The notes under the pieces: model-generated | What the model was told of the DNA's origin: nothing | The model's database searches: none | Seen by the model: the letters and a program-made list of their open reading frames with translations, nothing else | Shown here: piece by piece, positions 54,205-63,949 of the stretch | How the letters are laid out: each line of letters opens with the position of its first letter | How positions within the stretch are numbered: position 1 is the stretch's first letter | Source: Salsipaludibacter albus | GTDB lineage: Bacteria > Actinomycetota > Nitriliruptoria > Nitriliruptorales > Nitriliruptoraceae | DNA: 64,000 nt | Direction of reading: 5' to 3' | Assembly (NCBI RefSeq): GCF_019798055.1 | Contig: NZ_JAHOPH010000017.1 | Coordinates: 1-64,000, forward strand | Program-made: the position numbers and the translations under genes

Positions 54205-55140
54205 TCAAGCGTTGCCATCGTCAGTCCGGCTTGGCCTGACGGGCGGAGTCCTGGCTCCCAACCAGCGACCGACGGCCCAACCAGCCAGAGCGGCTGCTGC
54301 CCCAAGGAGCAGCGGATTCCCCCAGCGAGCGACGTCACTGCCGGGCTCCGGCCCGGGATCGAGGAGGTGCTTGGCCAGCCATTCGACTGTCAGGGCGAGT
54401 GCTTCGGGATCTCGATCGCTTGTTAGCACGGAGTGACGCGAGCCCGGGACCTCGACAGTCGTCAAGCGTCCGTGCGTGAAGACTCGCAGGTGGCCACGTC
54501 GCTGCCACTCTCCGAGCGGGTGCTCTTCGTCCGTGGACTTCAGGCGGGTGCGGATGTGGTCGAACCGACCGTCGCCACACAGAGGGTCGTTGCGATAGCG
54601 CAGGCACAGCAGGGGCGTGTCCGATTCCTCGGCCGCCTCGAGCGTCTCGTCGGATAGACCGAGGTCGGCGCTGGTGGTCGGGGACCAGGGACGCATTGGA
54701 GATGACGGCTGGCTGCTGATTACGGTAGCTGTGCTCTCGTTGGCGAGCGTGCCGAGCACGATGCCTCCGGTCATGCACATCCCGATCACGGCGACGCCGC
54801 GACTGGCGTCGAGTTCTGGGTCGGCAACCAGTTCGGCGATGAGAGCGTTCAGCCAGTTAGTGAGCTTGTCTGGACCACCTGCGCTGAACAGTGCCATTTC
54901 ACGTCGAAGACAGCTCCAGGCTTTCACAGCGCCTCCGAGTGTGCTGCGCACCTCGGAGTCGCCGTAGAGCAGGGGCACGTGGACCGAATAGCCCTGCAGT
55001 TGGAGCATGCACGCGAGTTCGTGGAAGGCGGTGGAGACGCCGTGAAGCTCGTGGAGCAGCACCACCGGCGGTCCCTCGCCATAGGACACGACCTCGAACC
55101 GACGACCGTCGTGGGCCACGGAGCGCGTGCGCTGACTCAT
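54205..55140 (-). CDS. Dienelactone hydrolase-like protein with C-terminal membrane segment
   Basis: A 311-residue protein. Residues ~10-255 form a DLH-type alpha/beta hydrolase with ELHG in VVLLHELHGVSTAFHEL, nucleophile Cys in VIGMCMTGGIV (G-x-C-x-T-G-G), and His in VPGSRHSVLT. A C-terminal hydrophobic segment (PLLLGAAAALAGWAVGRWLG) may anchor it. The ATG overlaps the stop of the large membrane protein upstream (ATGA), so the two are co-translated. Confidence 0.85.
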   Translation of the reverse strand: MSQRTRSVAHDGRRFEVVSYGEGPPVVLLHELHGVSTAFHELACMLQLQGYSVHVPLLYGDSEVRSTLGGAVKAWSCLRREMALFSAGGPDKLTNWLNALIAELVADPELDASRGVAVIGMCMTGGIVLGTLANESTATVISSQPSSPMRPWSPTTSADLGLSDETLEAAEESDTPLLCLRYRNDPLCGDGRFDHIRTRLKSTDEEHPLGEWQRRGHLRVFTHGRLTTVEVPGSRHSVLTSDRDPEALALTVEWLAKHLLDPGPEPGSDVARWGNPLLLGAAAALAGWAVGRWLGARTPPVRPSRTDDGNA

Positions 55141-57602
55141 GTCGCGGTCGGGTCTGGCGGACTGTGTGTGTCGAACATCGGCCGCAGTTCGGTGATAGCC
55201 ACGGCGTACCGGTCCTCCAACCAGTATCCCGAATGGAGCCGGTTCTGTGGATCTGCAAGTCCGTACGGGGGGTCCGACAGCTCGTCAATTACCGTCGAGG
55301 CTTCGTCCTCGTTGCTGTCCTGGGAGTGGGCTATCGGCCCGCCGATGGGATCGGTGACACGCCACAGGTTGCGCCACCGGATCTCCCCCGTCCCAGGACT
55401 CGTCAGGTGGCCGGCCAGTTCCGTCAGCAGCCCCGCGTGGAACATCCCAGGGAATAGTTCGCTGTACAGCCGCCGGACCGGCGATCCGTACGTCAGCAAG
55501 GCCACTTGGTCGAGCGAGCCTGCGTCTGGGTCCTTGTCGTGCGCTAGCAGACACGCCGGCACGGCGATCACGCTGCCTTGCGAGTGCGGAGCCAGGATCG
55601 TCGAGGCACCAGCCGCCCTGCGTCGCTGCAGGACCACTGCGAGGCCGCTGACAGCTGTGTCGGAGTAGCTGCGTTGCGCGAATGGATGGAACCACCGTGG
55701 CCAGAACGCCGTGAGGTCCCACAGGACCGCAAGCCCCCGCCGGGTCGATCGGTCCCGAAAGCCATAGACCATCCTCGTGCCGATCGCCAAGACCGGGGCC
55801 GTGAAGGCCACGAACACCGCCACGTCGGACAGCGACGGGTCGTACGGCGGTAGCCACGCCGGTGCCGCCAGCCACTCCAGGCGGCCAGTCCAGCCACCTT
55901 TGAGCGTTGTCTCGATGACACCGAGCAAGAGCGTCAACCCAGCGAGGAGGAAGATCAGGAAACCGACCCATCGCCAGGGGCCCTTTATAGCGATCAAGAC
56001 AATCACAGCGACCGTGACGAGAAGTACGGCGCCGAGTCCCCACACCAAGTCTGACGAACCGATTCTGAGGCATTCCTGGCTGTCCAGCGCCACTGCCTCG
56101 AAGCCCCATGGCGTGGCGCCTGGCCGTGTGCACTCCCGGACTGCCTTGTAGAGAGCAATGAAGCCGATCACCCCGAGCGCGCCGAGGAAGACGACAAGCC
56201 GGGTGGGCTGGCTGACCAGTTGCCGCACGGCGCTCATCGGTCGCGAACCGAGGTCGGGGTTCTGCCTCTGAACGAGACTGGCGAGGCGGATGCCGCCGAT
56301 CACGACGACCAGGAGTGCCAGCACCAGGAAGACAAGAGCGACCCACTCCAGCACGGCAGGCGTGACAATCTTTGTCAGCGCCTTCTCGGCCCTCCCGGTC
56401 AACGGCCCCGCGAGGATCTCCATGCCGCCGAGCAGGAAGCCGGCCCCGTATACAGCACCCGTAGCGCCGGCGAGCAGCATCACCGACGGCCCCGTCAACA
56501 CCTGCAACCCAGACGTCCCCGGTGACCCTAGACGAGAGGTCCAGAACTCAAGCACGGCCACCGCGACGGCCGCGACTAGCACCGCGACGGCGGCGACGAC
56601 GAGAGTGCCGCGGAGGCCAGGCAGCGTCTCAGTGGGCTCGATGGGCAGGCGCGACAAAGACGCGCCGGCCATGACGACGCTCAGAGCCCCCAACAACCCG
56701 GCGAGCCAGCGTGCAACGGCACTCCACACCCGATGTAGCGGTCGGCCCGCGGACCACGACATCGCAACAAGGAACCCGGCTGAGATCGCAATGCAGGCAC
56801 TAGCAGCGACGAGACCACTGAGCGCTACCCAATTCTCCGCTAGTTCGCCCACAACCCGGGGCGGCCACGCTTCGAATGTGATTCCACCCACCGCCAACGC
56901 GGCGGTGCAGACGGTCGCGGCGATCACGGAGAACGCGACCGCGGTGTGCGGGCGATGGCTGTGAGCGACGGTCTGCGGTGTAGACCACATCCCATCAGGA
57001 TCGACCTCAAAGCTAGTCGTCCGAGCACGCTCCACCACCAGCGGGGAGCGCTTCGGCCATAGCGGTCTCCACGGGTCTCGCGGGGCGACGGTCGTCAAGA
57101 TTGCGAGGGCCGCGATGGAGCTGAGCGCCAACACGTAACCCACCCAGGCGCCGATGCGTTCGCCGACGATGGCCCCCGCGACCGACGGGGCCACGTCAAG
57201 GAACGCGAGCGCCACGAACGTTGACCACAGCACGGTCAAAGCGAGCCCGTGCAACCGCAGCATGGCCGTCGCGAGCCTGCCCTGCCAAGGTGGCCTCTCG
57301 GCGGTGCAGTTCGGACGTATCGAGGGCAGCATCCAGCCCGCCACGTTGCTCAGCATGAACGGCAGCAGCAGAATGTTGAACGCGTGCCACGGCCGACCCG
57401 ACGTCAGAGACCCCCATGAGAACGCACGCCGGTCCCTCGGGACACGCCGCCCCCTCCCCGTCAGCTCAAGGCCGGTGGGCAACCCGTACTCGACCTCGCT
57501 GACACCAACCTCGAGCAGCGACTCGGCCGACGTCCCGGCCACGCCATGGATCCGGAGCTCCCAGAAGCTCGCATCAGACGTCCCCCAGCCCTGCCCCGTC
57601 AC
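55137..57602 (-). CDS. Large multi-spanning membrane protein with lipase-like motif
   Basis: An 821-residue protein that starts with WELRIHGVAGTSAESLL, a strand-turn with His-Gly as in alpha/beta hydrolases. It continues through about 14-16 membrane helices and ends with a cytoplasmic or extracellular domain carrying the nucleophile elbow ILAPHSQGSVIAV (G-H-S-x-G-type, here P-H-S-Q-G). The hydrolase fold seems split by a long membrane insert. GTG at 57602 is chosen because GGGAG lies five bases upstream; the frame is open to 57794. It forms an operon with the DLH-like gene. Substrate unknown, possibly a lipid. Confidence 0.72.
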   Translation of the reverse strand: MTGQGWGTSDASFWELRIHGVAGTSAESLLEVGVSEVEYGLPTGLELTGRGRRVPRDRRAFSWGSLTSGRPWHAFNILLLPFMLSNVAGWMLPSIRPNCTAERPPWQGRLATAMLRLHGLALTVLWSTFVALAFLDVAPSVAGAIVGERIGAWVGYVLALSSIAALAILTTVAPRDPWRPLWPKRSPLVVERARTTSFEVDPDGMWSTPQTVAHSHRPHTAVAFSVIAATVCTAALAVGGITFEAWPPRVVGELAENWVALSGLVAASACIAISAGFLVAMSWSAGRPLHRVWSAVARWLAGLLGALSVVMAGASLSRLPIEPTETLPGLRGTLVVAAVAVLVAAVAVAVLEFWTSRLGSPGTSGLQVLTGPSVMLLAGATGAVYGAGFLLGGMEILAGPLTGRAEKALTKIVTPAVLEWVALVFLVLALLVVVIGGIRLASLVQRQNPDLGSRPMSAVRQLVSQPTRLVVFLGALGVIGFIALYKAVRECTRPGATPWGFEAVALDSQECLRIGSSDLVWGLGAVLLVTVAVIVLIAIKGPWRWVGFLIFLLAGLTLLLGVIETTLKGGWTGRLEWLAAPAWLPPYDPSLSDVAVFVAFTAPVLAIGTRMVYGFRDRSTRRGLAVLWDLTAFWPRWFHPFAQRSYSDTAVSGLAVVLQRRRAAGASTILAPHSQGSVIAVPACLLAHDKDPDAGSLDQVALLTYGSPVRRLYSELFPGMFHAGLLTELAGHLTSPGTGEIRWRNLWRVTDPIGGPIAHSQDSNEDEASTVIDELSDPPYGLADPQNRLHSGYWLEDRYAVAITELRPMFDTHSPPDPTAT

Positions 57603-58224
57603 CTGTGCTCCCAACCTCTGGACAAGATGAGTCCGCAACTTGCCGCCGGCACACCCAAACTCATGAAGCCCACCACGGCGATTACTGGCGAACGTCGTCG
57701 AGTGCTCATCGGCTGCCCCATCCCCAATCCAGTCGCCCAATGGACCCTTGCAGATGTCGCTGCGTCCGTCAACTGTTGTTGGTGTCGTCGCCAAGGGGTA
57801 GACCTCGACGTGCCCTGTATCCGCTCGGGCTTTTGCAGGCTCCGACCGAGTTTCGCGGTCGCCGACTGACGCCCAACGAGCGCCTGGGCAGGTCCTTCGC
57901 CTTCCGGCCCAGCAGAACGCCCCGTCTTACGCCGGGCCGAGCATTGATGTCGCGATTGACACCACAGCCGGCATGAACCGCTTCAGCCTCAAGCCCGACC
58001 TTGAGACTGGGATAGCTCTTCACCGCGCATGAAGTCGGCAGGACGACACTGAACGCCTGCTTGTGCTCAAGCTGCCTCTGCATCGGCAGGCGGCCGGGGA
58101 TCGCAACTCGGATGCGGATACTCGGGGCTATGCGGGTCGGGGCTATTCCCAAAGCCGGGAGGTCCGGGGTTGCCCCTGCGGCCCTCCTCATCCTTGGTCT
58201 CATGGGCGGGCAGGGTCCGGACCG
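57603..58224. other. Gene-poor region
   Basis: The first ~190 bases could code an N-terminal extension of the membrane protein, but its composition argues against it. The rest holds a 144-codon minus-strand frame (57769-58203) without ribosome binding site or motif. I see nothing certain here. Confidence 0.4.
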
Positions 58225-59121
58225 TCAGTGCCGCTGGGGTTCGGAGTTGTGTGCGAGGTGGTCTTCGACGACTTGCCGGTAGTCGCTGAAGGTGGTCCGT
58301 GTTTCGGGCACAGCGTCCGCGATCGCCTTGGGGTAGATGCGCTCGGGCTGGTGGGTCAGCAGATCCCGGCGCTCGACGCAGGTTGCCAGCCGGTTGGCGA
58401 GGTCACCTGGGAGGATCCCGGCATGTGCCAGGAGCTCGATGCCGTCGCGGTTGTCGGTGGGTGCTCGCCGTCCCGCGGCGGCGAGCATGTCGGCGTTGAT
58501 CTGTCCTGCGGTATCGACGAGGCTGGCCAGCACTCGCTCGAGCGAGTGACGTAAATCTCTGTCGACCTCGAGGTCCGAACTCTGGACGTTGCCGTGACGG
58601 CGAAGGTCGTCGAGCAGTTCACCGATTGTGGAGAGTCTGGCTCGGAGGGTCGCAACATCGAGCGGGGCGGTGGTCGTGGCAAGGAGCGACCGGAGTGTGT
58701 CGCGTCGCATGCTTGCGGTCTCCATGAACGTGCCGTCGGCCGCCATGGCTGCAAACGCGTGTTCCATCGGCTCGCGTTCGTACAGTGCGATTCCGTCGGC
58801 GATCGCACGGCGGCGTGCCGTGGTGGTGGCGTGAGCGGCGTCCACGACATCGATGGCTTCTGTGCCCAGCAGCGAGACCAGACTGTCGAGTAGTCCGACG
58901 ACGTCGTGGCGGCTGCCTGGTTCGAACACCACGCCGAAGTCGAGGTCGCGCGGCCGGTCCACCTCAGGGTCAGCTGCACTGCCGAACAAGGTGAGCACCC
59001 ACACGTTGTGGCGACGACACATCTCGTCGAGCTTGCCTTCGGGGAGACCGAACAGCCGCAGGCGTGCAGCTTCAACGCTGCCGGCCGGGTCGTCCGAACC
59101 ACAGTTGCCATGGGTGGGCAT
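58225..59121 (-). CDS. Fused nucleotidyltransferase (MNT) - HEPN protein
   Basis: A 298-residue protein. Residues ~25-120 are a minimal nucleotidyltransferase domain: VWVLTLFGSAADPEVDRPRD with LDFGV, giving GSA (47-49) and the Asp pair D59/D61, and a later acidic strand IDVVD. Residues ~135-290 are a helical HEPN/HepT-like domain with the RX4H ribonuclease motif RDLLTH (R252, H257). HepT toxins usually have RX4HXY; here the following residues are Gln-Pro. MNT and HEPN are normally separate antitoxin and toxin genes in which MntA-type enzymes AMPylate HepT. Here they are one chain. The MNT Ser is replaced by Arg before DLD, so activity needs testing. Confidence 0.78.
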   Translation of the reverse strand: MPTHGNCGSDDPAGSVEAARLRLFGLPEGKLDEMCRRHNVWVLTLFGSAADPEVDRPRDLDFGVVFEPGSRHDVVGLLDSLVSLLGTEAIDVVDAAHATTTARRRAIADGIALYEREPMEHAFAAMAADGTFMETASMRRDTLRSLLATTTAPLDVATLRARLSTIGELLDDLRRHGNVQSSDLEVDRDLRHSLERVLASLVDTAGQINADMLAAAGRRAPTDNRDGIELLAHAGILPGDLANRLATCVERRDLLTHQPERIYPKAIADAVPETRTTFSDYRQVVEDHLAHNSEPQRH

Positions 59122-61444: not shown

Positions 61445-62796
61445 GTGGTGTAGGACCGTGCGTCTCGGTTGTCAGGTGCGGGGTGCTGCGGGCAGGGACG
61501 GTAGACGGTCCTCCTGGTTGGTGAGTGGGGTCAGGGTGGCTTCGGCGATGTAGCGGCGGGGTGCGGCGACGAGTTCGTCGCTGACCTCGACCAGCAACGC
61601 CCCGACCAGTCGGATCACCGACTCGGGGTCGGGGAAGATCTGTACGACGTCGGTGCGGCGCTTGAGCTCGCGGTTGAGCCGTTCGATCGGGTTGTTGGAC
61701 CAGATCTTGGACCAGTGCACCGGCGGAAACGACGTGTAGGCCAACAGGTCGTCCTCCATGGCCTGGAGCCGCTCGGCCACGGCGGGTTCGATCGGGATGA
61801 GCTGGTCGACGACTCGGCGCAGTTGGGCCCGGGCAGCGTCGGCGTCGGGTTGGGCGAAGATGGTCGACACCGCGGCCGACACCACGGTGCGGTGCTGATG
61901 GCGTGCCACGGCGAGCAGGTTGCGCTTTGCGTGCACCCGGCATCGTTGCCAGGCTGCGCCTTGCAGCACCCGGGTGATCGCGGCACGCAGACCGGCGTGG
62001 GCATCGGAGACGACCAGCCTCACACCGTCCAGGCCGCGGTCGACCAACCCGCGCAGGAACTCGGTCCAAAACGTTTCGTTCTCGCTGTGGCCGATGTCGA
62101 CGCCCAGGACTTCACGGTGGCCGTCGGCGCGGCACCCGGTCGCGATCACGACCGCTTTGGAGATCACCTGGCCGTGCTCGCGCACGTGGACGTAGGTCGC
62201 GTCCAGCCAGACGTAGACGAACGGCAGATGGTCCAGCCGCCGCTGGCGGAGCACCGCGACGTCGTCGTCGATCAGCTTGCAGATCCGCGACACGGTCGAC
62301 TTGCTGATCCCGGAGTCGCACCCCAGCGCCTTGACCAGGTCGTCGACCTTGCGGGTGGAGGTGCCGGTGACGTAGGCGCGCATGATCACCGCCCACAGTG
62401 CCTTGTCGATCCGGCGGCGTGGCTCGAGCAGTTCGGGGAAGAACGATCCGGTGCGCAGCTTGGGGATCGCCAACTCCACGTCCCCGGCCGGGGTCGACAA
62501 CCGCTTGGGACGATGTCCGTTGCGCTGGGCGGTGCGCCACGGCGTGCGCTCACCAGGCTCGGCACCGATCCTGGCCGACAGTTCGGCTTCGATCAGCTCC
62601 TGGATCGCGGCACCCAGGATGTCGGCGATCGAGGTGGTCAGGGTCGCGTCGGCGTCCTGGAGACGCTCCGCGAGTTCGTGCATGGCAGACTGGTAGTGGG
62701 TCATCGTGTGGAACCTCTTTCGTGTGGAAGCTGAAGAGATTCGCACGGTGGCCCGCCTACGTCACGGAGGACTCGGCGGGCCGGCTCCTACACCAC
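61445..62796 (-). mobile_element. IS256-family insertion sequence
   Basis: A 1352-bp element bounded by the perfect 11-bp inverted repeats GTGGTGTAGGA (61445-61455) and TCCTACACCAC (62786-62796), with further partial match inward. It contains one intact mutator-type transposase. I found no matching 8-bp target duplication directly outside these ends. Confidence 0.82.
61472..62704 (-). CDS. IS256-family (mutator type) transposase
   Basis: A 410-residue DDE transposase. It has the N-terminal region AIQELIEAELSARIGAEPGE with RNGHRPKRL, and catalytic Asp in VWLDATYVHVREHG and in LVVSDAHAGL. The signature CRVHAKRNLL and the Glu in WSNNPIERLNRELKRRTDVV complete the core. The length is normal and the frame intact. 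ATG at 62704 with GAGG upstream. Confidence 0.95.
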   Translation of the reverse strand: MTHYQSAMHELAERLQDADATLTTSIADILGAAIQELIEAELSARIGAEPGERTPWRTAQRNGHRPKRLSTPAGDVELAIPKLRTGSFFPELLEPRRRIDKALWAVIMRAYVTGTSTRKVDDLVKALGCDSGISKSTVSRICKLIDDDVAVLRQRRLDHLPFVYVWLDATYVHVREHGQVISKAVVIATGCRADGHREVLGVDIGHSENETFWTEFLRGLVDRGLDGVRLVVSDAHAGLRAAITRVLQGAAWQRCRVHAKRNLLAVARHQHRTVVSAAVSTIFAQPDADAARAQLRRVVDQLIPIEPAVAERLQAMEDDLLAYTSFPPVHWSKIWSNNPIERLNRELKRRTDVVQIFPDPESVIRLVGALLVEVSDELVAAPRRYIAEATLTPLTNQEDRLPSLPAAPRT

Positions 62797-63127: not shown

Positions 63128-63949
63128 TCAAGCCTCGCCAAACAACGCGTATGGGTCGGGCCAGACGAAGTGGACTTCGACGGCCTCTTGGTAGGTGTCA
63201 TCTACATCCGCGGGTCGTTCCCCAAGCCCAAAGTGTCGATCTAGGCGCGCCCGCGCGTCGATCCACGAGCGGAGATACTGCCCAGGCTCAAAGAGCGTCA
63301 AGGCAAGCATCAGATACGTCTGGGTTTCGGTGCTCGGTCGGACGAGCGGTGGAGCCCAACCAAGAAGATAGAGGTGCCACTTGCGAGCGATTTCGTGAAG
63401 ATCACCAAGTACTGAGTCGAGAAGCTCATCTGGTACTAGTTCGCCACCAACCTTCAGCCCATCGCCGTCGTGAAAGGATGCCTGTCGATGAGCGACGACC
63501 TCATCGCGTGCCTTCTTGACCTCGGTGTGTGCACTTTGCAGACGCTCTTGGTCGTGCCGAACGGTGCTCTTCGCAGCCCGCTCCCAGGGACTCTCTGGCG
63601 GGACCGGGCTGTCTTGAGAATTCGATCGCTGGCTCGCGCGGCGTCTCACCGCCACGATCCCCTCGTAGTCAATCCTGGGCGCGAGTGCTGCAACTGCGTC
63701 GAGCGCCTTGACTACGCTGCGCACGCCTTTCGTGGCATCGAGCAGTCGACCGCAAGCAGCCACGACCGAGTCGTTGTGCCACTGCCGAATGAAGGGCGCA
63801 TAGTTCTCGAACTTGCTTGCAAGCAACGGTTCGATATCGGCAATCAGAGCGCGACCGTGGTTGACAGCAGACACCTCGATCAAGGCCTCATTGAACATCC
63901 CGGCTGCATCATCCAACTTCGCGACAGCCTGTTGGTTCAGCATCGCCAC
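63128..63949 (-). CDS. Hypothetical protein with AbiU2/HEPN-like motif
   Basis: A 273-residue, mainly helical protein. Centre: KKARDEVVAHRQ with R148 and H154 (RX5H), similar to the Arg-...-His block of AbiU2-type and other HEPN proteins. The N-terminal half is a helical bundle (GRALIADIEPLLASKFENY; VVAACGRLLDATKGVRSVV). The C-terminal part has WHLYLLGWAPPLV and an aromatic end (VHFVWPDPYALFG). Not assignable to a named family by eye; AbiU2-like abortive infection protein is the best guess. Confidence 0.6.
   Translation of the reverse strand: MAMLNQQAVAKLDDAAGMFNEALIEVSAVNHGRALIADIEPLLASKFENYAPFIRQWHNDSVVAACGRLLDATKGVRSVVKALDAVAALAPRIDYEGIVAVRRRASQRSNSQDSPVPPESPWERAAKSTVRHDQERLQSAHTEVKKARDEVVAHRQASFHDGDGLKVGGELVPDELLDSVLGDLHEIARKWHLYLLGWAPPLVRPSTETQTYLMLALTLFEPGQYLRSWIDARARLDRHFGLGERPADVDDTYQEAVEVHFVWPDPYALFGEA

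Follow-up and report, generated by a model that had tools for sequence, protein, structure and literature searches.

The window analysed here, a 64,000-nucleotide stretch of a contig of Salsipaludibacter albus, contains a gene in which the two components of a type VII toxin-antitoxin (TA) system, mntA and hepT, are joined in a single open reading frame (Table 1). The nucleotidyltransferase (MNT) domain is N-terminal and the HEPN domain C-terminal, and the Polbeta and HepT-like matches both exceed the Pfam gathering scores. An earlier note on this DNA had read MNT and HEPN as one chain at this position, and the open frame, its coordinates and strand, and the Pfam domains all bear this out. With the NCBIfam models, the fused protein scores 43.8 bits for MntA and 50.7 bits for HepT, so that neither reaches the equivalog cut-off (60 bits for each); two-gene relatives score about 50 bits for MntA, while for HepT the two relatives scanned reach 67.1 and 75.4 bits and both pass. 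The codon-position bias in GC content is intact in the two halves (0.73/0.49/0.76 and 0.74/0.46/0.77).

Table 1. Features of the fused gene, in positions of the 64,000-nucleotide window
Feature	Position	Strand	Evidence
Fused mntA-hepT gene	58225..59121	(-)	Open frame of 298 codons; two Pfam domains; codon-position GC
MNT (Polbeta nucleotidyltransferase) domain, residues 30-117	58771..59034	(-)	PF18765, E 1.5e-8; 26/26 conserved columns
GSX10DLD catalytic motif, residues 47-61	58939..58983	(-)	Alignment with 12-13 MntA relatives
Fusion scar, ACGA where relatives have the ATGA stop/start overlap	58674..58677	(-)	Junction DNA alignment with 7 relatives
HEPN (HepT-like, DUF86) domain, residues 168-280	58282..58620	(-)	PF01934, E 6.8e-11; AlphaFold HepT fold
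RX4H remnant of the HepT motif, R252-D-L-L-T-H257	58351..58368	(-)	Alignment with 14-15 HepT relatives
Q258-P259 replacing the relatives' E-Y, AMP-acceptor Tyr gone	58345..58350	(-)	Tyr in 15/15 two-gene relatives

The catalytic motif of the MNT half reads G47-S48 X10 D59-L60-D61, with D91 as the third conserved Asp, and the HEPN half retains RX4H, as the earlier note had stated. The note was also right that the Tyr modified by MntA is missing: the motif runs R252-D-L-L-T-H257-Q258-P259, with Pro259 at the position of the Tyr in RX4HXY. Because the canonical Tyr cannot be AMPylated in this protein, its regulation must differ from that of classical type VII systems, which agrees with the note's suggestion of a different mode of control. 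The Arg in front of DLD, which the note had singled out, was correctly read, and it turns out to be no special feature, since the residue there varies among two-gene MntA relatives (Q, G, N, R or A). Among the aligned two-gene HepT relatives, R is present in all 15 and H in 13, so that the lack of RX4H conservation that would have spoken against the earlier reading is not seen. The motif of these relatives is mostly RN(X3)HEY, with the His occasionally absent. Specifically, two of the two-gene HepT proteins have the catalytic His replaced and the Tyr kept: L041:540-974 (+), with RNLLTREY, and L039:3761-4216 (-), with RNVLIQEY.

Searches of relatives, class and phylum recover mntA and hepT as separate genes in numerous genomes belonging to the family and class, and the named relatives with such a gene are mostly Nitriliruptorales metagenome-assembled genomes (MAGs). 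The two-gene arrangement is found in related Nitriliruptorales genomes and in one Acidimicrobiia MAG (L101), and the MNT half of the latter shares 61% identity with that of the fused protein. Wherever both genes of a relative are complete, L101 included, hepT begins inside the end of mntA, in a 4-nt overlap of start and stop (ATGA or GTGA); the single frame of the fused gene thus supports the note's view that this is not a classical two-gene TA pair. As a query against the genome contigs, the fused protein alone gave no match, and an MNT alignment gave nine loci, of which L101 is the informative new one. No shared neighbour genes or conserved synteny with relatives were found on the retrieved contigs, and a search for phage or viral homologues returned none. 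The plasmid search produced one weak HEPN match; apparently fused matches on Cytobacillus and Haladaptatus plasmids were set aside, as a short nucleotidyltransferase is annotated separately there.

Alignment of the junction with the DNA of seven relatives reveals two changes: one extra nucleotide a few bases upstream of the overlap, at a non-homopolymer site, and a T-to-C substitution that turns ATGA into ACGA, by which the stop of mntA and the start of hepT are abolished at one stroke. Through the net +1 shift upstream of the overlap, mntA is read on in the frame of hepT, and because ATGA became ACGA the ancestral hepT start is gone from the fused gene. The closest upstream in-frame start is an ATG at codon 138, within the MNT half, with GGAG nine bases before it. 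This alignment shows that the shift and the substitution are what joined the overlapping mntA and hepT. We consider it very improbable that a false extra base, introduced by sequencing or assembly, has merged two genes that are truly separate. The genome is indeed a draft (4.2 Mb in 79 contigs), but the extra base lies outside any homopolymer, and the Tyr and further conserved residues have been lost independently. The stop and start of the overlap were removed by a separate substitution, which makes an artefact unlikely, as deleting the extra base would not restore the ancestral arrangement.

The two halves differ in what they have kept. The MNT half retains 26 of 26 columns conserved among 13 MNT relatives, whereas the HEPN half retains 23 of the 35 conserved among 15 HEPN relatives. 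The HEPN losses cluster in the active-site segment, residues 247-263, where 3 of 9 conserved columns are kept, compared with 20 of 26 elsewhere (Fisher P = 0.04). The lost residues include Y224, F228, P247, G250, N253 (to D), E258, Y259, and D263; in two-gene relatives, Y224, F228, G250, N253, and Y259 are invariant, and E258 and D263 are present in nearly all. The HEPN alignment is free of internal indels.

A three-taxon branch codon model places omega on the branch of the fused gene at 0.10-0.13 for the HEPN half (omega = 1 rejected, P = 3e-5 to 2e-3) and at 0.10-0.15 for the MNT half (omega = 1 rejected, P = 0.01-0.02), estimates that are rough, with saturated synonymous sites and a branch that includes time before the fusion. 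For these two reasons, the values speak against long neutral decay, though a recent relaxation would still be compatible with them. Compared with L101, both halves have evolved faster (Tajima P = 0.02 and 1e-4), with no difference in this excess between them (Fisher P = 0.8). The open frame by itself is weak evidence, because in simulations of neutral decay by point changes alone, the chance that no stop has arisen by about the divergence seen here is 20-26%.

An AlphaFold2 model built from an alignment of related halves (mean pLDDT 92, pTM 0.67) predicts both domains with confidence, their mutual placement being less sure. Foldseek pairs the modelled HEPN half with crystal structures of HepT (7ae8, TM 0.91 by target, 1.8 A); chains from MntA-HepT complexes were also among its matches. 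In the model, the HEPN half thus retains the HepT fold.

The sole other genome of the genus compared (G001) has lost its toxin by a different route. Its mntA, at L035:4426-4875 (-), is an open frame with GT replacing GS, and the match to hepT lasts 14 codons past the ATGA overlap and then ends; no remainder of the HEPN domain was found on that contig. Modification by Shewanella MntA was lost in the double mutant G27A,S28T (PMC7641770), and by analogy the nucleotidyltransferase of the sister genome may be impaired. In the genome of the fused gene, profile searches found no further HepT-like or Polbeta (MntA) protein while the positive controls were detected, and we therefore rejected a HepT or MntA acting in trans from elsewhere in the genome.

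The fused protein shares its domains, their order and their folds with the HepT/MntA systems of type VII (Shewanella SO_3166/SO_3165; Aphanizomenon HEPN/MNT; PDB 5yep, 6m6u, 7bxo, 7ae2, 7ae8), and, as in these, GSX10DXD and RX4H are intact. The known systems consist of two adjacent genes, MNT first, whereas here there is a single chain, the acceptor Tyr is Pro, and several invariant active-site neighbours have changed too. Fusions of MNT with a DUF86-type HEPN domain whose motif is eroded have already been described (Anantharaman et al. 2013, PMC3710099; Makarova et al. 2009, PMC2701414), including one on pAgK84 (PMC2701414), and the gene reported here appears to be a further example. MNT-fused HEPN domains typically lose their RNase residues, and the proteins that carry them have tentatively been interpreted as domesticated TA systems (PMC3710099). 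Compared with those surveyed, erosion here is partial, in that R and H of the Rx4-6H motif remain while the Tyr and several invariant neighbours are gone, and a small change at the ATGA overlap still reveals how the fusion arose. We also find other single-chain MntA-HepT proteins, at L031:1721-2509 (-) in G045, at L034:1497-2285 (-) in G028, and at L092 in G130. Unlike the gene described here, these keep complete GSX10DXD-type and RNX3HXY motifs, so fusion as such is not tied to motif loss; the first two share only about 20% identity with the fused protein. Kanamycin and aminoglycoside nucleotidyltransferases, such as ANT(4'') and AadA, likewise combine a nucleotidyltransferase with a helical HEPN-like domain in one chain, but their whole-chain Foldseek overlay on the fused protein is poor (rmsd about 16 A, TM 0.25-0.3), and the second half here is HepT-like.

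Given these observations, we consider that the fused gene is probably a type VII TA operon (mntA-hepT) that has been merged, defused, and domesticated, and that encodes a nucleotidyltransferase with a HEPN subunit that no longer serves as a switchable toxin. In the fused gene, the HEPN half would have ceased to be a toxin neutralised by AMPylation, and its most likely role would be that of a dimerising or substrate-presenting subunit of a putatively active nucleotidyltransferase. This reading draws on the two-gene relatives with their overlap and the scar at the junction, on a fully conserved MNT half next to a HEPN half that lost the Tyr and its active-site surroundings with its predicted fold kept, on purifying selection on the HEPN half, on a genome without HepT or MntA in trans, and on the cut-off hepT of the sister genome. 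It also draws on experiments in Shewanella, where HepT with a substituted Tyr stays toxic and its neutralisation is "reduced", not abolished (PMC7641770), so that an active toxin without this Tyr would be costly. Counted against domestication are the retention of R252 and H257, the fused protein being a single sequence among those compared, the acceleration of both halves, and the roughness of the omega estimates.

The same acceleration would also be expected of a relic on its way out, in a genus where the module has become useless and neither half is important, and the truncated hepT and the GT-for-GS change in the sister genome, the patchy distribution and the lack of common neighbours on the retrieved contigs fit such decay as well. 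We nevertheless hold this to be unlikely, as the MNT half retains every conserved column, neutrality is rejected for both halves, the frame is open with no indels in the HEPN alignment, and codon-position bias is intact. We give still less weight to the earlier note's suggestion of a self-inhibited effector, in which the tethered MNT domain would hold an active HEPN RNase in check in cis, with no AMPylation involved, until a signal sets it free; if true, a type VII toxin would have turned into an auto-inhibited sensor-effector. RNase activity of the HEPN half is possible, because it retains both R252 and H257, and because D is one of three usual residues after R in the HEPN motif (PMC3710099), as in other active HEPN families. 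The predicted HEPN fold and the partial neutralisation of Tyr-less HepT by Shewanella MntA are compatible with this too, and work on Legionella, where the R and H of RX4HXY are nearly dispensable for RNase activity (PMC11586414), calls for caution in reading the motif. By contrast, seven residues that are invariant or nearly so in two-gene relatives (G250, N253, E258, Y259, D263, Y224, and F228) have changed, the toxin is lost in the sister genome, and most of the MNT-fused HEPN domains described in the literature are inactive (PMC3710099). These points, together with the complete set of conserved MNT columns, are why self-inhibition is not our first choice.

If domestication is the correct reading, the taming of a TA system has been caught part-way, with the fusion change still legible, relatives of the same family that still have two genes and intact motifs, and a sister genome that displays another route of toxin loss. 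Whether MNT-HEPN enzymes have arisen from domesticated TA modules, as has been proposed, then becomes testable within one small clade.

Other genes of the window were noted on the same strand. An 885-aa open reading frame with long hydrophobic-looking stretches (55137-57794 (-)) has no match in a Pfam scan and has partial relatives in the sister genome and in G037. A second HEPN-type protein lies 4 kb from the fused gene, where a 273-aa open reading frame (63128-63949 (-)) matches HEPN_AbiU2 (PF18734, E 1.3e-6) barely above the gathering score. Between this AbiU2-like gene and the fused gene is a transposase of the Mutator family (IS256-like) at 61472-62746 (-) (PF00872, E 5.5e-126).
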